Below, piece by piece: positions 21,454 through 33,567 of a stretch of 64,000 nt of DNA (position 1 is the first letter of the stretch; every line of letters starts with the position of its first letter). This DNA comes from Pimelobacter simplex (GTDB taxonomy: Bacteria > Actinomycetota > Actinomycetes > Propionibacteriales > Nocardioidaceae). The notes below the pieces were generated by a model. The model did not search any database. It saw only the letters and a list, made by a program, of their open reading frames with translations, and had not been told where the DNA came from. The DNA is taken from NCBI GenBank assembly GCA_016803235.1, contig JADCLI010000014.1, positions 46,653-110,652 of the forward strand, written 5' to 3'. The position numbers and the translations under genes were made by a program.

Positions 21454-22446
21454 CTACCGGATCTCAACGCCGGAACCGACGGTCGTGTGGCCGATCACCG
21501 GGTAGCCAGGTACTTCGCCGGCGATCAGCAGACCCCCGGATGTCTGCGCATCTGCCAAGAACAGCAGGTCAGCGTCGGTGATCGGTCCGGCGGAGGTGAG
21601 ATGCGGACGGACCCAGTCGAGGTTGCGGCGCGTGCCACCCGAGACATAGCCGGCCTGCAGGGCGTCGAGGGCGCCGTCAACTGCTGGCACGGCCGCGCGC
21701 TCAATGACTGCACCAACGCTCGACGCGCGGCACATCTTGTGCAGGTGTCCGAGTAGGCCAAACCCTGTGACGTCAGTTGCTGACCGAGCCCCTGACGTGA
21801 ATGCGGCCTCCGAAGCCTCACGGTTCAGTGATGCCATGACTTCGATCGCGTGGGCAAAGACCTCCCCCGTTTGCTTGTGGCGGTTGTTCAGCAGGCCAAC
21901 ACCGAGGGGCTTGGTCAAGGTGAGCGGCTGTCCGGGTTCTGCGGCGTCGATGCGGAGGATCCGATCCGGCGCTACCGTCCCGGTTACCGCCATGCCGTAC
22001 TTGGGCTCCGGGTCGCTGATCGTGTGACCGCCGATGACGGGGCATCCGGCCATCCGAGCGATGTCCAGGCCTCCACGAAGTACCTCGCTCATCACGTCGA
22101 GCGGCAGCACGTCTCTTGGCCATCCGACCAGATTAATCGCGACAACCGGTTGGCCACCCATGGCATACACGTCAGACAGCGCGTTCGCTGCTGCGATCCT
22201 TCCCCAGTCATGGGGATTGTCGACCACCGGCGTGAAGAAGTCGGCGGTCGAGACCACGGCGAGGTCGTCGCGAACGCGAACGACGGCTGCATCGTCGCCG
22301 TCGTCAACGCCGACGAGGATGTCGTCGGAGGCCTGTCCGACCAAGTTGCGAACTGCGTCTTCGAGTTCGCCCGGTGGAATCTTGCATGCGCAGCCACCAC
22401 CCTGCGCATAGCTCGTCAGCCGCTTGGTCGCTGTGCCCGAGTGCAT
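21454..22446 (-). CDS. selD: Selenide, water dikinase
   Basis: Makes selenophosphate from selenide and ATP, the selenium donor for SelA. The N-terminus has the catalytic pair in GGCACKIPP: Cys19 (Sec in some organisms) and Lys22. The substrate-binding landmarks GVDDGDDAAVV, STADFFTPVVDNPHDWGRIAAANALSDVYAMGG and the ATP-binding GGHTISDPEPKYG follow. 330 residues, normal. It is transcribed away from tRNA-Sec and selA, with only 45 bases between its start and the tRNA. The protein uses Cys, so selD expression does not itself need Sec decoding. Confidence 0.95.
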   Translation of the reverse strand: MHSGTATKRLTSYAQGGGCACKIPPGELEDAVRNLVGQASDDILVGVDDGDDAAVVRVRDDLAVVSTADFFTPVVDNPHDWGRIAAANALSDVYAMGGQPVVAINLVGWPRDVLPLDVMSEVLRGGLDIARMAGCPVIGGHTISDPEPKYGMAVTGTVAPDRILRIDAAEPGQPLTLTKPLGVGLLNNRHKQTGEVFAHAIEVMASLNREASEAAFTSGARSATDVTGFGLLGHLHKMCRASSVGAVIERAAVPAVDGALDALQAGYVSGGTRRNLDWVRPHLTSAGPITDADLLFLADAQTSGGLLIAGEVPGYPVIGHTTVGSGVEIR

Positions 22447-22491: not shown

Positions 22492-22587
22492 GGAGGCGTA
22501 TGGGTTCCTGGTGGGCCCCCCGGTCTTCAAAACCGAGGAGACCGAGCATCTCGGTCTGGCGGGTTCGATTCCCGTCCGCCTCCGCCA
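22492..22587 (+). tRNA. selC: tRNA-Sec, anticodon TCA, CCA encoded
   Basis: Ninety-six bases folding as a selenocysteine tRNA: acceptor GGAGGCG pairing CGCCTCC, a short D arm, anticodon loop CTTCAAA with TCA, a long variable arm (GAGACCGAG, loop, CTCGGTCT), and T arm GGGTTCGATTCCC. The discriminator is G and CCA is encoded. The eighth acceptor pair appears as T-C. It lies between selD and selA and should be charged with serine, then converted by SelA. Confidence 0.95.
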
Positions 22588-22611
22588 CGAGTCGCACAGG
22601 AGGGCCGGTCG

Positions 22612-23856
22612 GTGGTTGACGATCCGCGGCGCAGAATCCCGCGCACTGATCACCTATTGGAGCTCGTCAGGAGCGTTCAACAGCGGGCCCGCACTGGCCT
22701 GATCGCTCCTGAGGAGGTCGAGTCGGTTCTGCTTGCGGCCGCTGCCTCCGCGTTCCAGGGCGTTGGTTTGCGCCCGGTGCTCAACGCGACCGGGGTTGTT
22801 GTCCACACTAATCTCGGCCGCGCTCCGCTGTCGCGGGCGGCAGTGGCCGCGGTCATCGCCGCCAGCGGTTACACCGACGTCGAGATCGACCTCGACACCG
22901 GTAAGCGAACCCGCCGCGGCGGCGAGGCCCTGGCGGCACTGCGTCGTGCATGTCCGGCGGCCGAAGACGTTCTGGTGGTGAACAACGGTGCCGCCGCACT
23001 TGTCCTCGCCACGACCGCGCTGTGCATGGGCCGCGAGGTTGTCGTCAGCAGAGGCGAGTTGGTCGAGATCGGCGCGGGGTTCCGGTTGTCAGACCTCATT
23101 GCTTCAACAGGGGCACTGCTGCGTGAGGTGGGCGCAACCAATCGCACTCACCTGCGTGACTACGTCGACGCGATCGGCCCGGACACGGGCTGCATCCTCA
23201 AGGTCCACCCAAGCAACTTCAGGGTCGAGGGCTTCACGAGTGGCGTCTCGATTACCGAACTGCGTTCGGCTGTCGGCGACCTGCCGATCATCGCTGACCT
23301 CGGCAGCGGTCTGCTTCGTCCCGAACCGCGGTTGCCCGATGAGCCGGATGTCTCGAGCGCCCTCGCGTCGGGTGCGGACCTCGTGGTGGCCAGCGGTGAC
23401 AAGCTCCTCGGTGGCCCTCAGGCCGGCCTCCTGCTCGGTCGAGCAGACCTGATCAAGACTCTCGCCAATCATCCGCTTTCACGGGCGGTTCGCGTCGACA
23501 AATTGACGATCGCCGCGCTTGAAGCGACGCTCTCCAACCCAAGCGTTCCGGTGCGGCAGGCGCTGGACGCGGACGTGAATCAGCTGCGTCAACGGACTGT
23601 CCGACTTGGTGCGCAACTCGACCTGCCTGTGGTCCCTCACGACGGTCGGGTCGGCGGCGGCGGCGCCCCCGGTGTCGCCCTTCCAGGCTGGGCTGTGCGG
23701 CTGCCCGAATCGGCAGCGCCCTGGCTACGTTCCGGCGACCCTGCAGTGTTGCCCCGTGTGCGTGCCGGCCACTGCCTCATCGACCTTCGCTGTATCCCGG
23801 AATCCGACGACCAAAAGCTGCTCGATGCGATTCAACGATGCTTGGTGCGACTTTGA
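22612..23856 (+). CDS. selA: L-seryl-tRNA(Sec) selenium transferase
   Basis: PLP enzyme converting seryl-tRNA(Sec) to selenocysteinyl-tRNA(Sec) with selenophosphate. The 414-residue protein has the SelA core: NATGVVVHTNLGRAPLS, the RRGGEA phosphate loop region, NNGAAALVLAT, and the PLP lysine in ASGDKLLGGPQAG at Lys264. The start is GTG 22612, with AGGAGG eight bases before it and only 24 bases after tRNA-Sec. Its end overlaps selB. An in-frame opening upstream runs through the tRNA and is not coding. Confidence 0.95.
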   Translation: MVDDPRRRIPRTDHLLELVRSVQQRARTGLIAPEEVESVLLAAAASAFQGVGLRPVLNATGVVVHTNLGRAPLSRAAVAAVIAASGYTDVEIDLDTGKRTRRGGEALAALRRACPAAEDVLVVNNGAAALVLATTALCMGREVVVSRGELVEIGAGFRLSDLIASTGALLREVGATNRTHLRDYVDAIGPDTGCILKVHPSNFRVEGFTSGVSITELRSAVGDLPIIADLGSGLLRPEPRLPDEPDVSSALASGADLVVASGDKLLGGPQAGLLLGRADLIKTLANHPLSRAVRVDKLTIAALEATLSNPSVPVRQALDADVNQLRQRTVRLGAQLDLPVVPHDGRVGGGGAPGVALPGWAVRLPESAAPWLRSGDPAVLPRVRAGHCLIDLRCIPESDDQKLLDAIQRCLVRL

Positions 23857-25676
23857 GGTCGTATGTCGTCGCAACGGCGGGCCACGTCGACCACGGTAAG
23901 AGCACTTTGATCCGTTGCCTGACCGGGACTGAGCCGGACCGATGGGAAGAGGAGCGCCGCCGCGGACTGAGCATCGATCTCGGATACGCGGGCATGAAGC
24001 TTCCGGGAGGCGAGCATGTGGGGTTCGTCGACGTTCCCGGTCATCGAAGATTCGTCGGCAACATGCTGGCTGGACTCGGGCCCGCTCCGGTAGTGCTGCT
24101 CGTCGTTGCAGCGGACTCGGGATGGCAGGCACAGACTTCGGAGCACCGCGATGCCATCGCTGCGCTGGGCATCTGCCGTGGTGTTGTTGCTGTGACACGA
24201 ATCGACTGCGCGTCGGCTGAGCAGATACAGAGGACCCGCGCTCAAGTGGTTCGAGAACTGGCTGGGACTCCTTTGGCCGACGCTCCGGTCGTGGAGGTAT
24301 CGAGCATCAGCGGTGCTGGGGCGGACGATCTCGTTGCGACGCTGGCATCTGTGCTGACGACCAGCTCAGAGCCCAGCAGTGGGCGACTCCGGTTCTGGGT
24401 TGACCGGTCCTTCAGCGTCTCCGGTTCTGGGACCGTCGTCACCGGCACGCTAACGGCGGGCGCCCTGGGGATTGGCGATGAGCTCGACGTGCTGCGAGGT
24501 CCCGACGTCCTTCGCGTAACGGTTCGTCGGCTGGAGTGTGACGGCGAGAGTCTGGCGACGGCGGCCCCGGTGAGCCGTGTCGCGCTCAATCTGCGGGGAG
24601 TCGGGGTCGCCGACGTCCGCCGAGGCTCAGTCCTCATGACACCAGGCCGGTGGCGCCAGACAGAGTTGGTGGATGCCCGCTGCACTTGGGGCTCCGGCGA
24701 GCCGATCCCAACTGAAGTCCACCTCCATGTGGGGACGTCCGCGTCGGTCGCACGAGTCCGTGCGCTCGGCGAGCAGCACGTCCGGCTTCGGCTCCGCCGA
24801 CCTCAGCCTCTGGCCCCGGGCGATCGCGTGATCCTGCGCAATCCCGGCGACGGCTCCATCCAGGGGGCCGTCATCATCGACACCGACCCGCCGGCTCTTA
24901 ACCGGAGAGGTGACGCCGCTCGGAGGGCCGCCGAACTGCAGGCGAGTCCACTGACGGGCGACGTTGCATTCGAGGTCCGACGGCGACGGTCAGTACCGCT
25001 CAACCAGTTGCTTCTCCTCGGCCTGGCCGAGGAGGCGAACAGCGAACCTCCGGCCGGCGTCATCGCTCACGCCGGTTGGTGGATCGATGCGGCCGCATGT
25101 GCGTCGTGGGCGTCAACGCTGAGCGAGGCCGTGGCGAACCATCACGCCCGCGACCCCTTGTCGCCAGGCATTGCACATGCCGCCGCAAGCCAGCTGGCCG
25201 GCATACCTCACGGCGACATCCTCCCGCTCGTACTGCGGAGAGCCGGCCTGGAAAGCTCCGGGGGCTTCGTGCACGGCCCGGGGCGCGGGCACGACCTGGG
25301 CCCTGCTGAGACGGCAATCGCGCGGGTGGAAGCCAGGTTGTCGCGGAACGCCTTTGATGCACCCCTGGTGCGCGACCTCGATGCGCTCGGTCTGGGCCAG
25401 CGCGAACTTGCGGCGGCCGCTCGCTCGGGACGAATCCTCCGCTTGGCGTCCAACGTTGTGCTCCTGCCATCGGCTCCCGTCCTCGCGCTGCGCGAGTTCG
25501 TGCGCCTGCCCCAGCCTTTCACTACGAGCCAAGCCCGGTTGGCGCTGGGCAGTTCACGGCGTGTCGCCATCGCACTCTCGGAACACATGGACGGGCGCGG
25601 TTGGACGCGGCGCGACGGAGACGCGCGCCGAGTCGTGTTACAGGATCCGGACTGGAAGGACCTCAGCAAGGGGTAG
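23838..25676 (+). CDS. selB: Selenocysteine-specific elongation factor
   Basis: Delivers Sec-tRNA(Sec) to the ribosome at UGA codons marked by a SECIS hairpin. The EF-Tu-like G domain has GHVDHGKST, the DVPGH motif and VTRIDCAS in place of NKxD. The C-terminal part holds the winged-helix modules that bind the SECIS. 612 residues, typical. ATG 23838 lies in the end of selA; TTG 23853, overlapping the selA stop (TTGA), would give the more usual short N-terminus RSYVVATAGHVDHG and may be the true start. The C-terminal SECIS-binding part should match the hairpin at 27572 if that is real. Confidence 0.95.
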   Translation: MLGATLRSYVVATAGHVDHGKSTLIRCLTGTEPDRWEEERRRGLSIDLGYAGMKLPGGEHVGFVDVPGHRRFVGNMLAGLGPAPVVLLVVAADSGWQAQTSEHRDAIAALGICRGVVAVTRIDCASAEQIQRTRAQVVRELAGTPLADAPVVEVSSISGAGADDLVATLASVLTTSSEPSSGRLRFWVDRSFSVSGSGTVVTGTLTAGALGIGDELDVLRGPDVLRVTVRRLECDGESLATAAPVSRVALNLRGVGVADVRRGSVLMTPGRWRQTELVDARCTWGSGEPIPTEVHLHVGTSASVARVRALGEQHVRLRLRRPQPLAPGDRVILRNPGDGSIQGAVIIDTDPPALNRRGDAARRAAELQASPLTGDVAFEVRRRRSVPLNQLLLLGLAEEANSEPPAGVIAHAGWWIDAAACASWASTLSEAVANHHARDPLSPGIAHAAASQLAGIPHGDILPLVLRRAGLESSGGFVHGPGRGHDLGPAETAIARVEARLSRNAFDAPLVRDLDALGLGQRELAAAARSGRILRLASNVVLLPSAPVLALREFVRLPQPFTTSQARLALGSSRRVAIALSEHMDGRGWTRRDGDARRVVLQDPDWKDLSKG

Positions 25677-26036
25677 ACCAGTCTGAACCCATGCGTCGAA
25701 GCCGCCGATGACATCGGTGGCAAACGACAGGCCCAGCGACTGCAGTCGAGCAGCGGCAAGCGACGAACTGTACCCCTGTTGACATAGGACGATCGGCCGT
25801 GTTCGCGGTCCAGCGACGCTGATGCGCCACGGGCTGGTTGGGTCGAGGCGCCACTCCAGAATCGTCAGATCGATCGGCAGTGAATCCGGAGGCGCTCCGA
25901 AGCGCTCGCGCTGGTCGTCTCGACGCACGTCGACCAGCAGCGCGCCACTACGCTGCGCTTCGAGCGCCTCCAGCGCCGTCAGCCGGTTCAGGCTGCCGCG
26001 GGCCTGCGCTAAGGCTTGGCCGATCGTGGATTCCAC
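25638..26036 (-). CDS. Single-domain rhodanese-like sulfurtransferase
   Basis: A 132-residue rhodanese domain: LLVDVRRDDQRERFGAPPDSLPIDL, then the active-site loop VLCQQGYSSSLAAARLQSLG with the catalytic Cys, and GGFDAWVQTGLPL at the end. GTG 26036 (VESTIGQA) is the best start. It converges on selB and their ends overlap by 39 bases. Rhodaneses can carry persulfide or perselenide sulfur/selenium; next to selD/selA a role in selenium delivery is attractive but unproved. Confidence 0.75.
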   Translation of the reverse strand: MESTIGQALAQARGSLNRLTALEALEAQRSGALLVDVRRDDQRERFGAPPDSLPIDLTILEWRLDPTSPWRISVAGPRTRPIVLCQQGYSSSLAAARLQSLGLSFATDVIGGFDAWVQTGLPLAEVLPVRIL

Positions 26037-26202
26037 GCGGCCAGCACACCACACCAATCGACCCGGGCGCGAGATCTGTATCTCGCAAGGGAAGGCGGCT
26101 GGCGGTGCCGGACTGCACTCCGGGCGATACCAGACGGCGCGTGTTCTGGAGGTCAATCGTCGCGACACAGCGCGATGCTCAGCAAAGGTTCATTGGAAGT
26201 GC

Positions 26203-26321: not shown

Positions 26322-26858
26322 GTGCAGGAGGTGGTCGTGACGGTCGTTTGGCATGCGGCAATGACTGCTGCAGCCGTTCTTCTGATCGCCAGTGCTGTGA
26401 GTCATTCACGCGACTGGAAACTCATGCTCTCGTCTCTGCTGAAGCACGGAGTTCTTCCCTACAAGGTCGCGCGTCGGCTCGCGAGAATGTTCGCCTCCAT
26501 CGAGTTCCTCTTGGCACTCCTCGTGGGTTCTTCCGTGGCGTTTCCTGGAATCCTTCCGTCGTATGTGGCCGGAGGTGCCGCTGCGGTCTTCTTCGGATCC
26601 ATGACCGCCTACCTCGCCGCTGTTGTTGTGCGCCGCGGCGAAGCCACGTGCAACTGCTTCGGAACCGACCAGCCCTTGAACTGGATGACGGTCGTCCGCG
26701 CTGCCCTGCTCATGGGCGCCGCGGTCGGCTACTCCTTTGCCGGTTCCGCAACCGTGAGCGCAGCGCGCGGGCAGGGATTCCTCATCGGGATCGCCGTGGC
26801 CGCTGCTCTCGTCTTCCTGCCCAACGTTAGGTCCGGCCCAGCCCGAGGAGTTGCATGA
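26322..26858 (+). CDS. MauE/DoxX-type membrane protein
   Basis: A 178-residue integral membrane protein with five hydrophobic segments. The loop before helix 4 has the MauE hallmark CNCFG (Cys110 and Cys112), which is thought to act in disulfide handling during maturation of the methylamine dehydrogenase small subunit. GTG 26322 is followed by an internal AGGAGG, so translation could also begin at a later codon. It overlaps the next gene by four bases (ATGA) and opens a five-gene operon. Confidence 0.75.
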   Translation: MQEVVVTVVWHAAMTAAAVLLIASAVSHSRDWKLMLSSLLKHGVLPYKVARRLARMFASIEFLLALLVGSSVAFPGILPSYVAGGAAAVFFGSMTAYLAAVVVRRGEATCNCFGTDQPLNWMTVVRAALLMGAAVGYSFAGSATVSAARGQGFLIGIAVAAALVFLPNVRSGPARGVA

Positions 26859-27373
26859 GCCTCAACCTTGCACTGTCCATCATCGCTGTCGCAGGGGTGG
26901 TCGTGCTTGCCTTGGCAGCGGCGAACCAGAGTGCGGAGCTGCGTTTCCTCAAGCAGCAGGTGGTCAGTCTGCGCAAGCTGTCGGGAATCGATGCGAAGTT
27001 GTTGGACGTCGAAACCAGGGGAGAAGTCGCGGCCGCGCTGCCCACGGCATCCAGAGGCGCGATGGTGCTGGTGATCGACGAAGGATGCTCCATCTGCGAG
27101 GAAGTGGTGCCACTCTTCGCTCAGCTCATGGCGGCCGAGGACAACGACGGCTTCGCCGCGGTTGTGGTCAGCCGGTCACGGACGCGGACCGAAGGAGCCG
27201 AGAGGGTACGGCACCTGGCGGACCCCCGACTGCACCACCATCTGGATCCGGGCTATCTGCCCGCCATGCACTACATCCTGCCGGACGGCGAGCCGGGCTT
27301 GACCGAGCCTGTCGGGTCCCGCGAAGGGCTGATCGAAGCGATGGCTCTCGCCGGCGTCAAAGTAAAGGTATGA
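26855..27373 (+). CDS. MauD-like membrane-anchored thioredoxin-fold protein
   Basis: 172 residues: an N-terminal signal anchor (ALSIIAVAGVVVLALAAAN), a short coiled region, then a thioredoxin fold with a CSIC redox motif at Cys78-Cys81 after VLVIDEG, and a cis-Pro-like segment near LPAMHYILPDG. The layout matches MauD proteins, which with MauE are needed to form the many disulfides of MauA. It faces the outside of the membrane. One base separates its stop from the next start. Confidence 0.75.
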   Translation: MSLNLALSIIAVAGVVVLALAAANQSAELRFLKQQVVSLRKLSGIDAKLLDVETRGEVAAALPTASRGAMVLVIDEGCSICEEVVPLFAQLMAAEDNDGFAAVVVSRSRTRTEGAERVRHLADPRLHHHLDPGYLPAMHYILPDGEPGLTEPVGSREGLIEAMALAGVKVKV

Positions 27374-27374
27374 C

Positions 27375-28115
27375 ATGCTGAGGCTCTCGGGGCTTCGTCC
27401 CGCTGTCATCTCGCCGTTCCTCGTGCTGGCGGCGATGACGGTCGTTGCGGCAGTTCTCGCGGCCACGGCCGGAGCCGCAGAAACCCGAGCGCCCCTATGG
27501 GTGATCTTGTCCTTGGCCGCAGGCTTCTCCATCTCAGGCTCCGTTTGAAGTCACAACTCAGCAATGCTGATCTCGTCGGTCTGGCGAGGCACTTCGTTGA
27601 GGTGGTTCAACTCCGGCCTGGTGCTCGGGGGAATCTTTGCTGCCATCGCAGTCTTGCTCGCCTCGTCGATCGTGATCCGACCGTGGTGGAGTGAACGATT
27701 CACGTGGGTCCCGATCACCGCGGCCACGCTGGTGCTGCTGCTTCGTGAGCTGGGGGTATTGACCTTCCGTATGCCGCAGAATGCGCGCCTCGTGCCCCAG
27801 CGCGTGGTCGACGCAGGGCCAAAACTCGGCGCCCTGCAGTTCGGATTCGAGATGGGGACCGGCTCGAGGACCTATGTCACGAGCAGCCTGCCGTACCTGT
27901 TGGTTCTGGCGCTCGCTCTCGCGGCGTCCCCAATCGAAGCGGTCGTTGCGGGAGCCGGGTTTGGTCTAGGACGAGCGCTGATGTCGAGCTCACGCACTTG
28001 GTCTCGGCCGGTGGAAGTGTGGGACGAGGTGCTCTTAGGGCAGGAACGCGCTTTGCGCCTTTGGACGTTTGCGCTGGGCGGGCTGGCCGCGGCAGCGATT
28101 GCGCTGATGAGTTGA
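27375..28115 (+). CDS. Membrane protein with in-frame TGA: candidate selenoprotein
   Basis: Reading from ATG 27375, one base after the mauD-like stop, the frame meets TGA at 27546-27548 (codon 58) and then stays open in the same frame to 28115, 246 codons in all. Residues before the TGA form two hydrophobic helices (PAVISPFLVLAAMTVVAAVL; PLWVILSLAAGFSISGSV); after it come further helices and a basic loop. If TGA were a stop, the second part would need its own start at ATG 27564, which has no ribosome site, and a 190-base gap would break an operon whose genes otherwise lie at most 15 bases apart. Seventeen to forty bases after the TGA lie hairpins resembling a bacterial SECIS. The alternatives are a nonsense mutation (CGA to TGA) or two separate genes. 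Confidence 0.6.
27546..27588 (+). promoter_or_regulatory. Putative bacterial SECIS element
   Basis: After the TGA (27546-27548) the bases CTCGTC (27572-27577) pair with GGCGAG (27583-27588), closing the loop GGTCT (27578-27582). The same GGUCU occurs in the apical loop of the Escherichia coli fdhF SECIS. The loop begins 29 bases after the TGA, inside the 16-37 base range used for bacterial SECIS searches. A second hairpin, TCAGC-AAT-GCTGA (27558-27570), lies between and could help or compete. Confidence 0.5.
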
Positions 28116-28128
28116 GAATGGAGACAGG

Positions 28129-28812
28129 ATGAAGAAGTTCAGAAACGCCGACGGATCGACCGTCGAGTTGGAGGCAGCGGGGTACGACATCGCTGAGCCA
28201 TGGGACGCGACGTTCCAAGTACGCCTCAGGTCGCCACGAGGAGGCGACGACCTGATCGACCAGTTCGACGTGTATCCCTTGGGGAATCATGAGCCCGTTG
28301 TGGAGCGCGTTCTCAACGGCAAGATCGTCGAACAGGTCGCGCACAAAGGCGGCAGGCTCGTCGTGGCTCACGGTGTGACACAAGGGCTGATGGCCTGGCT
28401 GGGAACCAAGTTCGAGATCGCCGTCTTCACCCGCTCGCCTCGCCCTTCAATGAAGGATGCACTGCGGCGGTTCGACGTACTGGAAATTGCCGAGGGCCAA
28501 GACGGTATCGAGGTGACAAGCAAGGACGCTGGCCACGTCGTGCGTCCCTACAGCGCCGGAAAGTTCATTCCGGAACTCGGCTACGTGATCGTCAAGGCTC
28601 CACAGGAGTCGGTGAAGCTGATGCCGTCGTGGCGCGGCACCCAAGTGCGCGCGGGCGAGGTGTGGCGCATCGACGGCGGGCTGCCCGCCGACGAACAGCT
28701 TCTCCTGGGGACCACGACCTGCGCTGCCATCGTGTCGCCGACAGCGGGTGTCACAAACGATGCGCTGCTGAACTTCTGCCGCAGTATCAACACGTTGGAA
28801 TGGAGGAGTTGA
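28129..28812 (+). CDS. Unknown soluble protein in the Mau-like operon
   Basis: 227 residues, no signal peptide or membrane helix. A strand-rich fold with FQVRLRSPRGGDDLIDQFDVYPLG near the start, GGRLVVAHGVTQGLMAWLG, and a C-terminal DNALLNFCRSINTLEW. One conserved-looking pair of cysteines (TTTCAAI and NFCRS). The ATG lies 13 bases after the preceding stop with GGAGA before it. I do not recognise the family. Its position between the membrane protein and the exported Cys-rich protein suggests a cytoplasmic maturation or chaperone role for one of them. Confidence 0.65.
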   Translation: MKKFRNADGSTVELEAAGYDIAEPWDATFQVRLRSPRGGDDLIDQFDVYPLGNHEPVVERVLNGKIVEQVAHKGGRLVVAHGVTQGLMAWLGTKFEIAVFTRSPRPSMKDALRRFDVLEIAEGQDGIEVTSKDAGHVVRPYSAGKFIPELGYVIVKAPQESVKLMPSWRGTQVRAGEVWRIDGGLPADEQLLLGTTTCAAIVSPTAGVTNDALLNFCRSINTLEWRS

Positions 28813-28813
28813 C

Positions 28814-29350
28814 ATGAACGACGCGTCAATGCCGCCGAGCATTTTCCTTCAGCCCGCCGGCCACCTGGTCCCCAGCACCGTCCGCGCAACGCTGGCAGCA
28901 TCCCTCACGAGTCGCCGTTCGCTGCTGAAAGGATTCGGCGTGCTATTCGTCGCCTTGGCAACGGCTTCGATCGACATGCTGCCACGCATCGGCAGCAAGG
29001 CGGCTGCAGCGCCAGCAACGCGCGTCGATTGCAACTACCCCGACAGCTGGAAGATCTGCAATCCCGACGCAGCCCAGGTGTCGGGGGCCTATTGCGACTC
29101 GACGGGCTATCACCGCACCGACGCCACAGCCAACGTCTGCGAGTCACGCGATTACGTCCGGGACTGGCGGTGCGGTCCGATCCCAACGGGGGGGAGCTAC
29201 AACGCCTGGGTCTGGCGGAAGCACTGGGGGCCCGACACCGGTGCGCCCGACGTCCGGTGCTCTGACGGCAAGGTGCATGCCATCGACAAGGACCCGTGCC
29301 GTCCGTATCGCAAGTGGACGTTCCCCAGCACCTGCAAGGTTCTGCTCTGA
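28814..29350 (+). CDS. Tat-exported Cys-rich protein, methylamine dehydrogenase light chain-like
   Basis: 178 residues. A twin-arginine signal (SRRSLLKGFG at 33-42, then a hydrophobic stretch, cleavage probably after the Ala run near 66) precedes a small domain with eight cysteines (73, 82, 94, 109, 120, 149, 162, 174) and six tryptophans. The spacing CNYPDSWKIC recalls CDYWRHC of MauA, the tryptophylquinone subunit, which is also Tat-exported, Cys-rich and matured by MauE and MauD. MauA has twelve cysteines, so this is at best a distant relative; no mauB or mauG is present. GGAGG is placed correctly before the ATG and the operon spacing is one base. Whether any Trp becomes a quinone is unknown. 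Confidence 0.65.
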   Translation: MNDASMPPSIFLQPAGHLVPSTVRATLAASLTSRRSLLKGFGVLFVALATASIDMLPRIGSKAAAAPATRVDCNYPDSWKICNPDAAQVSGAYCDSTGYHRTDATANVCESRDYVRDWRCGPIPTGGSYNAWVWRKHWGPDTGAPDVRCSDGKVHAIDKDPCRPYRKWTFPSTCKVLL

Positions 29351-29405
29351 CGTTACAACCAACCCAGCGAGCCAGACGTCTATCACGATGAAGGGAGGAC
29401 ACTTC

Positions 29406-29936
29406 ATGGGAGTGGACGTCGTCGCAGACACCGAGCTCGCTGAGTTCTTGCAAGCGATTCAGCAACGCCTCAGCCGGTTGGCCTTGATGCTGACCGGTGA
29501 TCGGATGAGCGCTGAAGATCTTGTCCAGGACACGATGGTCAACGTCGTGCGGAGATGGTCGAAGGTTCGGCGTGCCGACGATCCCGTTGCCTACGTCTGT
29601 CGAATGACCCTCAACCAATGGCGCGACCTCGGCCGACGTCGCGGCGCCCGGATCGTCGAGATGCCACTCGACGATCCGGGTCCGTCGAACGAGGCTTCGA
29701 CCATTGCGACCGATGAGGCATTGCTGGACAGGCTCACACTACGAGACGCGCTCAGCGAGCTCACCGCGAAGCAGCGAGCTGTTCTCTACTTCCGGTACTA
29801 CGAGGACCTTTCCGTCAGGGAGGTCGCGAACATCCTCGAGTGCTCGGAAGGAACTGTGAAATCCCAGACGTCCTACTCCCTTCGAGTTCTGGCCAGATCG
29901 AACGCGCTCGCACCGGTCAATCGGGGAAGCAGGTGA
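29406..29936 (+). CDS. SigE-family ECF RNA polymerase sigma factor
   Basis: 176 residues with sigma region 2 (ALMLTGDRMSAEDLVQDTMVNVVRRW) and region 4 (LTAKQRAVLYFRYYEDLSVREVANILECSEGTVKSQ), the layout of the actinobacterial SigE/SigM-like ECF group. ATG 29406 follows GGGAGG by eight bases. It lies 55 bases after the Cys-rich protein and overlaps the next gene if that uses GTG 29933. Probably controls this operon in response to an envelope or redox signal passed by its partner. Confidence 0.88.
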   Translation: MGVDVVADTELAEFLQAIQQRLSRLALMLTGDRMSAEDLVQDTMVNVVRRWSKVRRADDPVAYVCRMTLNQWRDLGRRRGARIVEMPLDDPGPSNEASTIATDEALLDRLTLRDALSELTAKQRAVLYFRYYEDLSVREVANILECSEGTVKSQTSYSLRVLARSNALAPVNRGSR

Positions 29937-32375: not shown

Positions 32376-32669
32376 GTGCCGAAGCCGTACCCCAAGGAGT
32401 TCCGTGACGACGTGGTCCGCGTCGCGAGGAACCGTGAGCCTGGCGTCCATCTCAAGCAGATCGCTGCCGACTTCGGCATCAGCGAGTCGTGCCTGACGAA
32501 CTGGATGAAGACCGCCGATGTCGAGGACGGCGTGAAGCCCGGCACGACGTCGGCTGAGAGTGCCGAGAACCGCGAGCTGCGCAAGCGGCTGCGGCTGCTG
32601 GAGCAGGAGAACGAAGTCCTGCGTCGGGCGGCTGCCTATCTGTCGCAGGCGAACCTTCCGGGAAAATGA
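32376..32669 (+). CDS. IS3-family transposase orfA
   Basis: A 97-residue helix-turn-helix protein (HLKQIAADFGISESCLTNWMK) with a C-terminal leucine-zipper-like helix (RLRLLEQENEVLRRAAAYL), standard for IS3 OrfA. GTG start at 32376. It overlaps orfB by four bases (ATGA). IS3 elements make the OrfAB transposase by a -1 frameshift near this junction. Confidence 0.9.
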   Translation: MPKPYPKEFRDDVVRVARNREPGVHLKQIAADFGISESCLTNWMKTADVEDGVKPGTTSAESAENRELRKRLRLLEQENEVLRRAAAYLSQANLPGK

Positions 32670-33567
32670 TGTACCCGCTCGTCCGCGAGTTGGCTGTCGA
32701 CGGGATTCCCGTCACGGTGACGTGCCGGGTGCTCAAGATCGCTCGCCAGCCCTACTACCGGTGGCTCAACGCGCCGGTCACCGACGCCGAGTTGGTTGTG
32801 GCCTACCGCGCCAACGCCTTGTTCGACGCCCACCAGGATGACCCCGAGTTCGGCTACCGCTTCCTGGTCGACGAGGCGGCCATCGCGGGCGAGGCGATGG
32901 CGGAGCGGACCGCGTGGCGGATCTGCTCGCAGCTGGGCTGGTGGTCGGTGTTCGGCAAGCCCAAGCGCGGCAAGGCGAAGAAGCCCAGCCCTCCGGTCCA
33001 CGACGACCTGTGCGCCGTGGTCGACAAGAACGGCGTCATCCGCCACGAGTTCAAGGCCGATGCCCCGAACGAGCTGTGGATCGGCGACATCACGGAGCAT
33101 CGGACGACCGAAGGCAAGGTCTACATGTGCGCGTTCAAGGACGTCTACTCCAACCGGATCGTGGGCTACTCCATCAACTCCAGGATGAAGTCCAGACTCG
33201 CCGTCGCGGCGCTCAACAACGCCGTCGCCAGGCGCGGTGACGTGGCCGGCTGCGTGGTTCACACGGACAGAGGATCGCAATTTCGAAGCAGGAAATTCGT
33301 CCACGCCCTCAACCGTCACGCCATGGTCGGATCCATGGGCCGCGTCGGGGCCGCGGGCGACAACGCGGCCATGGAGAGCTTCTTCGCGCTGCTCCAAAAA
33401 AAGTCCTGAACCGACGCGCCTGGGCCACCCGCGAGGAGCTCCGGATCGCGATCGTGACCTGGATCGAGCGGACCTACCACCGACGCCGCCGACAGGCCGC
33501 TCTCGGACGATTGACCCCCATCGAGTACGAAGCCATCATGACCACGCCAGCCACTCAGGCTGCGTGA
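32666..33567 (+). pseudogene. IS3-family transposase orfB, frameshifted
   Basis: The DDE integrase domain is recognisable: Asp in WIGDITEH, Asp in VVHTDRGSQF and Glu in NAAMESFFALL. After that the run of seven A at 33396-33402 puts the frame onto TGA at 33407. With one more A the frame would continue as VLNRRAWATREELRIAIVTW to the natural end AATQAA-type at 33567. The active-site residues all lie before the break but the normal C-terminal helix is lost. Could also be a sequencing error or transcript slippage in the homopolymer. Confidence 0.8.

Follow-up and report, generated by a model that had tools for sequence, protein, structure and literature searches.

A TGA codon inside an open frame

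Whether a TGA codon within an otherwise open frame marks a decaying gene or encodes selenocysteine (Sec) is the question raised by the forward-strand gene at 27375-28115 of the window, i.e. the whole 64,000-nucleotide stretch of Pimelobacter simplex DNA analysed herein. As the first-pass annotation had located exactly, the frame begins at ATG 27375, holds a single internal stop, the TGA of codon 58 at 27546-27548 on the same strand, and is open until the terminal stop that ends at 28115. A single base lies between this start and the end of the ORF before it (26855-27373), and the gene is single-copy in its own genome (5.36 Mb in 82 contigs). Read through the TGA, it would encode a membrane selenoprotein of 246 residues with Sec at codon 58; this reading is based on the single frame, on the conservation of the TGA in the alignment with relatives and on a helical AlphaFold2 model. 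Taking the sequence comparisons together, we regard it as almost certain that the internal TGA encodes selenocysteine and that the gene is not broken. The UGA at codon 58 would then be decoded as Sec by the SelA, SelB and tRNA-Sec of the same island, with a hairpin 29 nt downstream directing the event.

Conservation of the TGA codon

A scan of genome contigs yielded 96 relatives, of which the best 80 loci were kept and 16 left out; the window together with the best 80 of 96 relatives makes a set of 81 sequences. In all 81 the codon that corresponds in the alignment to codon 58 of the window gene is a TGA, and the Sec site sits in a strongly conserved stretch, SGS-x-U-[ST]-x-NS. Since one pattern of the scan, VCSHNSAM, was written with Cys codons, it would favour Cys homologues, yet none of the best 80 of 96 close loci has Cys at the Sec position. 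The first-pass annotation had suggested looking for Cys or Sec in homologues and had named beforehand, as grounds for dropping its reading, arginine at codon 58 or the two halves occurring as separate genes. In fact the codon is TGA in the best 80 of 96 close loci, and in the more distant subfamily described below it is TGA or, in eight copies, TGC as far as read; no arginine was seen, and the two halves form one frame in 81/81 sequences of the window and the best 80 of 96.

The conservation is not confined to the codon itself. In an alignment of 44 members the invariant residues include S54, G55, S56, U58, N61 and S62, a second invariant block is made of F156, G157, E159, M160, G161 and T162, and Sec lies within one of these two best-conserved stretches. 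The terminal stops of the 81 aligned proteins (window and best 80 of 96) are mixed, being TGA in 57, TAG in 21 and TAA in 2 with one frame open at a contig end, so that the internal TGA is no mere habit of stop usage. As synonymous sites are probably saturated between divergent members, dN/dS over all divergent pairs (medians 1.1 and 0.79) was set aside and 83 pairs of 80-99% identity were used instead, for which the ratio is 0.48 in the part preceding the TGA and 0.25 in the part that follows it; judged by these ratios, both sides are under purifying selection. The carriers span many genera, for example Streptomyces, Amycolatopsis, Nonomuraea, Micromonospora and Pseudonocardia among others. 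No relatives were found in phages or viral contigs, while in the plasmid collection a single record, from Nonomuraea, matches, in a stretch that has no listed genes. At two loci (L001:12574 and L014:794) the selenoprotein gene occurs a second time, on the other strand of the locus, and this copy too has a stop at the aligned column.

With these data the most ordinary explanation can be weighed, namely a nonsense mutation (e.g. CGA to TGA) in the gene of a common membrane protein on a decaying island. An integrase-core transposase gene does lie nearby (32666-33409), and the related locus L023 has a decayed look, as described below; against this stand the TGA shared by 81/81 sequences (window and best 80 of 96) over many genera, the restriction of the distant subfamily to TGA or Cys as far as read, the selection acting on both sides of the TGA and the covariation of the hairpin. 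A chance mutation is thus hardly conceivable.

A second explanation would be that the frame yields two products, namely a peptide of 57 residues and, from an internal start at ATG 27564, a downstream protein. The ORF 27564-28115 indeed begins with ATG, and the downstream part is open on its own. But the strongly conserved stretch spans the TGA and lies mostly before ATG 27564, while the codon of this ATG is Met in only 5/81 sequences of the window and the best 80 of 96, the others including F in 34, D in 21 and H in 6. Moreover, in the distant subfamily described below, TGC takes the place of TGA only where SelA is missing, the one exception being a genome with both forms. Two separate products are consequently very improbable, and we retain the reading of one selenoprotein.

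RNA hairpins beside the UGA

Downstream of the TGA, on the same strand, a bSECIS-type hairpin is found at 27572-27588 by RNAalifold consensus and covariation, with the arms CTCGTC (27572-27577) and GGCGAG (27583-27588) enclosing the loop GGTCT (27578-27582). The hairpin coordinates and the spacing of 29 bases from the TGA to the GGTCT loop had been given correctly in the first-pass annotation, and RNAalifold on the 81 sequences (window and best 80 of 96) returns the same six-pair stem. Compensatory change is seen at the pair 40-54, which is GC in 23, UA in 22, UG in 20 and something else in 1 of 66 distinct rows. The stem has a covariation of 0.247 against 0.144 +/- 0.013 for shuffles, none of 500 of which reaches it, where the aligned sequences are related and the shuffle counts are not probabilities; slid registers give at most 0.113. 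Further pair types, one of five covariation measures, are not above the shuffles (411/500), and an added outermost seventh pair is unpaired in 45/66 rows. It is the covarying hairpin, along with the TGA at the aligned codon in the window and the best 80 of 96 relatives, that supports the selenoprotein reading first proposed for this gene.

By energy alone the hairpin region of the window is unremarkable (z about -1.2), and the support for the hairpin is therefore comparative. When ten single sequences from both subfamilies were folded, a small-loop hairpin appeared at the SECIS place in 10/10, although in energy these hairpins do not stand out from shuffles (z between -2.28 and +0.08 for the ten). 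Some hairpin also precedes the SECIS place in 10/10, differently placed in L002, L119 and L121. In the window this upstream hairpin, TCAGC-AAT-GCTGA, occupies 27558-27570 of the forward strand with arms at 27558-27562 and 27566-27570; in the family alignment 89.1% of cells are paired at these columns, with covariation weaker than that of the main stem. The first-pass annotation was right on its presence and took it for a possible competitor; as the hairpin is largely conserved across the family, companion seems the better word for it. Besides, the Val57 codon is GTT in 42/45 sequences, hinting that the RNA around the UGA is under constraint.

Selenocysteine machinery in carrier genomes

The decoding genes lie 5' of the selenoprotein gene within the island, and the earlier statement that selA, selB, selD and tRNA-Sec are all there is borne out by curated models for each. 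On the reverse strand selD, for selenophosphate synthetase, is at 21454-22446 (TIGR00476, E=2.8e-114), followed on the forward strand by tRNA-Sec (UCA) at 22492-22587 (ARAGORN; Rfam RF01852, 80 bits), by selA at 22600-23856, where 22600 is an arbitrary start of reading (Pfam SelA 2.1e-94; TIGR00474 2.3e-117 in its own genome), and by selB at 23838-25676 (TIGR00475, 245 bits with a cut-off of 242.25). Between selB and the cassette, a rhodanese-domain protein is encoded on the reverse strand at 25638-26168 (Pfam PF00581, E=1.1e-6); it possibly serves selenium or sulfur delivery, and a relative is close to the gene in 4/80 loci (best 80 of 96).

Among 50 genomes of the window subfamily, corresponding to 50 of the best 80 of 96 loci, SelB is over the cut-off in 40, and in the other ten SelA is over the cut-off in nine, so that SelB or SelA is present in 49/50. 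The exception is L023, which has no SelA match and keeps of SelB only a remnant, residues 296-601 of the C-terminal part. At this locus (L023:4426-8729) the TGA gene is open to its end, MauE and d2 (the cassette partners described below) are partial, and MauD and d1 were not found; with the machinery lost and these partners partial, we read it as a cassette decaying after the loss of its machinery. The machinery often lies near the gene: tRNA-Sec is inside 18/60 loci scanned, and selD, selA and selB are found in 23/80, 16/80 and 15/80 of the stretches, respectively (best 80 of 96 loci).

As for other selenoproteins, no Sec formate dehydrogenase over the family cut-off was found in the window genome, where the best match has 98.7 bits against 814.2 and no TGA. 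In the carrier genomes tested the formate dehydrogenase family is over the cut-off in 17/25, several with an internal TGA, and not over it in 8/25, the genome of the decayed L023 being one of these eight.

A distant subfamily with probable Sec/Cys exchange

A profile of the window family matched 33 of 396 Actinomycetota genomes, its own included; most of these matches are distant and carry either WSP-U-GxSML or SP-U-GLSMVETITP as their motif (L094-L124). The window and the distant subfamilies align in profile-profile comparison with a probability of 99.3% and E 4.9e-20. The Sec position is readable in 29/33 distant regions, with TGA in 25 and TGC in 4; the rest (L092, L093, L103 and L122) are cut, masked or unresolved by the pattern, and L093 shows a TGA. 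No NCBIfam model matches the distant family over its cut-off.

When the distant family was used as the query on these 396 genomes, 71 of them had matches. In 54 of the 71 the match extends to the Sec column and contains a TGA, its place having been read individually in 25 of the 54 and being taken as the profile search reports it in the remainder; eight copies have no stop there, and in 10/71 genomes, the window genome among them, the match falls short of the Sec column and enters neither count. All eight stop-free copies have the Cys codon TGC, and there is no Arg among those read. One genome, G100, holds a Cys form (TGC) and a TGA form together (L155, L156), and SelA is present in it.

The exchange follows the presence of SelA, which was used as the marker because SelB is blurred in the 396 genomes by EF-Tu, which also matches. 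Strong SelA matches (E<1e-60) were found in 51/54 TGA genomes, with a partial one in G200 and none in G242 (68% complete) and G256 (73%), while there is no SelA match in any of the seven Cys-only genomes (0/7). The chance that all seven would be among the ten of 61 genomes lacking strong SelA is about three in ten million (hypergeometric, with relatedness ignored). SelB at E<=1e-65, a threshold chosen post hoc from the background, points the same way with 45/54 TGA genomes and 0/7 Cys-only ones. SelA is over the cut-off in 226/396 Actinomycetota genomes, so the family is one selenoprotein among others in this phylum.

Cassette partners

The selenoprotein gene is embedded in a forward-strand cassette. 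It is preceded by a MauE-family membrane protein with an invariant CxC at 26322-26858 (Pfam PF07291, E=2.9e-14), for which PF07291 is matched by 19/20 aligned members and the Cys columns are kept in 20/20, and by a MauD-like membrane-anchored thioredoxin-fold protein with an invariant CxxC at 26855-27373. The latter alone matches no Pfam family, whereas its family profile matches MPT53 (1lu4) at 3.8e-7, and both Cys of the CxxC are present in 29/29. Downstream lie d1, a conserved cassette protein at 28129-28812 without a match in Pfam or NCBIfam and with none in the PDB below E 0.26, and d2 at 28814-29350, a Cys-rich exported protein recognised by TAT signal matches, which has five invariant Cys, a WxW and a D, all invariant residues being kept in 32/32. 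Within 6 kb of the gene in the 81 stretches (window and best 80 of 96), a relative of the MauD-like protein is found in 79, of d1 in 77, of d2 in 81 and of MauE in 47; no MauE relative turned up in 34/81, some stretches being cut by contig ends. The commonest order is d1-(MauE)-MauD-d2-selenoprotein, and in the window it is MauE-MauD-selenoprotein-d1-d2. Just past the cassette, at 29241-29936, an ECF-type sigma factor is encoded (Pfam Sigma70 regions 2 and 4), with relatives in 9/80 loci (best 80 of 96), and the transposase gene already mentioned (Pfam rve 1.3e-21) is near the island, and its presence makes a mobile or rearranged island possible.

Iterated searches of the 33 distant regions revealed 33 MauD-like ORFs in 28 regions and 28 MauE-like ORFs in 28; in a spot check by Pfam, one of the MauE-like proteins matched at 3.3e-13 and one of the MauD-like proteins had no Pfam family. 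In 22 distant regions another Tat-exported Cys-rich family is encoded (for example at L111:3690-4187 on the reverse strand, with 21 other loci), in which 11 Cys and a Trp are invariant over 17 aligned members. Its profile-profile match with d2 spans the Tat signal only. The MauE/MauD partnership thus looks general although the exported proteins differ.

The first-pass annotation had spoken of a Mau-like redox operon. For MauE this is confirmed by PF07291 and for MauD it agrees with the fold of its family profile, whereas an amine dehydrogenase subunit as the exported partner is not supported: d2 as the light chain of that enzyme was considered and rejected for want of a Pfam or PDB profile match. 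Methylamine dehydrogenase carries a tryptophan-derived cofactor, and it may be asked whether d2 is the substrate from which the cassette produces a quinone-type cofactor or a RiPP-like modified Cys-rich peptide, with the selenoprotein as redox supply. Both MauE and MauD belong to the maturation of methylamine dehydrogenase, d2 has the invariant WxW and D beside its invariant Cys, and the most divergent row of the distant exported family (from L124) has as its best PDB match the small subunit of aromatic amine dehydrogenase, weakly (E 0.023). Clusters of mauE/mauD with Cys-rich precursors in three Streptomyces have also been proposed as RiPP candidates by decRiPPter (PMC7794033), with no mention of selenium in the accessible part of that paper. 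But the light chain of amine dehydrogenases is matched in Pfam or the PDB neither by d2 nor by the exported family of the distant subfamily, and the structure model of d2 is poor (pLDDT 63.8). We consider such a product rather unlikely.

Fold and proposed mechanism

The AlphaFold2 model of the selenoprotein is helical with a mean pLDDT of 90.5, falling to 77 in the block 51-60 and 63 in 61-70. A helix at 39-53 is followed by a break at SGS and by a helix at 57-65 with Sec as its second residue, and another break comes after the invariant FGFEMGTG. The helices of CcdA are likewise broken at its cysteines. The Sec column is the only conserved Cys/Sec column, in 44/44 members of the window family and 26/26 of the distant family.

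Database searches place the family only from a distance. With the window protein no Pfam family is over the cut-off, DUF983 being at E 0.13 and scattered single-member matches no better than 0.0061; with the window family no model of NCBIfam (June 2026) is over its cut-off, the scattered matches being at best 0.0057, and the best of the PDB sequences has E 2.6. Foldseek with the model finds no PDB match at E<0.001 (best 0.53), and the viral models give 0.36 at best. The distant subfamily does match CcdA, at E 1.4e-4 and a probability of 52% with SPC aligned on SPC, whereas the probability is 0.4% when the window subfamily is compared with CcdA directly; the NCBIfam DsbD model is matched weakly by 2/26 distant members (best 1.8e-6). 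These profile comparisons are suggestive of a distant relation of the window family to CcdA/DsbD through the distant subfamily, with Sec at the place of the SPC cysteine.

The selenoprotein is likely a membrane thiol/selenol redox carrier. Its Sec would be the reactive residue, the selenol of a polytopic CcdA/DsbD-like electron carrier in the membrane, and the selenolate would exchange with the CxxC of the MauD-like neighbour and/or the CxC of MauE. Electrons may in this way cross the membrane and adjust the disulfides of d2, the Tat-exported partner, either electron direction being allowed. That d2 is the client is suggested by the gene order and the cysteines of d2, and we see the chances for and against it as evenly balanced. 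The explanation as a whole, with its parts at the strengths given to each above, appears to us highly likely.

Alternatively, the selenoprotein may be a transporter or a structural partner, handling selenium, a metal or a thiol compound rather than carrying electrons. The lack of a fold match and the single redox residue would suit such a function, and in the table of PMC13188914 some membrane selenoproteins already known bear transporter names. But in both subfamilies the gene is repeatedly paired with MauE and MauD-like CxxC proteins, and there are the signals to DsbD/CcdA, weak as they are; these make a transporter or structural partner unlikely, and an electron carrier remains our preferred reading.

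Significance

A review of May 2026 (PMC13188914) gives in its Table 1 119 selenoprotein families and subfamilies, many with NCBIfam models, and the accessible portion of that table has no entry with the motif or description of the window family. The accessible text of the deep-Sep paper (PMC12013277) likewise contains no match for actinobacterial terms, and in the literature covered, with subscription literature outside, no paper was found on a selenoprotein together with MauE in Actinobacteria or on a selenoprotein in Acidimicrobi. Very probably, then, there is a real and new selenoprotein family together with a second related one, residing in a conserved redox cassette; the window family is apparently large, widespread in actinobacteria and uncatalogued.

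If this is true, the use of selenium by actinobacteria has been undercounted, for instance in Streptomyces, Amycolatopsis, Nonomuraea, Micromonospora and Pseudonocardia among others, and the genes of the family have presumably been annotated as two fragments or missed altogether. It would also provide a selenoprotein for the window genome and for 7 or 8 of 25 other carriers without a formate dehydrogenase over the cut-off. Sec users without known selenoprotein genes exist according to the portion of a 2016 survey available to us (PMC5029168), and the family is a concrete candidate answer to them. The "orphan SelD" of Amycolatopsis vancoresmycina described in that portion is not explained in this way, as an assembly of the same species (L006) has SelB over the cut-off and a formate dehydrogenase with TGA. 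Moreover, a membrane redox carrier in which just one selenium is conserved would make the question why Sec is retained simple to approach.

On a larger scale, we tentatively raise the possibility that membrane redox carriers working with one residue, a Sec that has replaced the Cys of a CcdA-like protein, form a superfamily throughout the phylum. Such a superfamily might keep the Sec system in many actinobacteria without Sec formate dehydrogenase and might power the maturation of proteins rich in Cys and Trp that leave by the Tat route and may carry a protein-derived tryptophan cofactor.

Comparison with known systems

With the Sec formate dehydrogenase of actinobacteria the window family has the decoding machinery in common, while the proteins are unrelated. 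TsoB (NF045694, rhodanese/DsbD-fusion-like) is a DsbD-like selenoprotein in NCBIfam, and one of 44 window members matches it at E 0.065, which is not significant; moreover, TsoB has two Sec in UxxxxU, as given in the available part of the table in PMC13188914.

The transmembrane domain of CcdA/DsbD resembles the present system in being a membrane protein, in the weak alignment of the distant Sec/Cys on the SPC cysteine of CcdA and in the membrane-anchored thioredoxin-fold neighbour. CcdA and DsbD have a pair of membrane cysteines, whereas the selenoprotein has a single conserved redox residue, the Sec, with no second conserved Cys in either subfamily, and the window subfamily is not directly recognisable as CcdA. 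With the mau system for the maturation of methylamine dehydrogenase, the cassette shares a true Pfam member of MauE, a MauD-like CxxC protein and a Tat-exported Cys-rich partner; it differs in that no light chain is recognisable by Pfam or PDB profile, and in that the selenoprotein and d1 are added.
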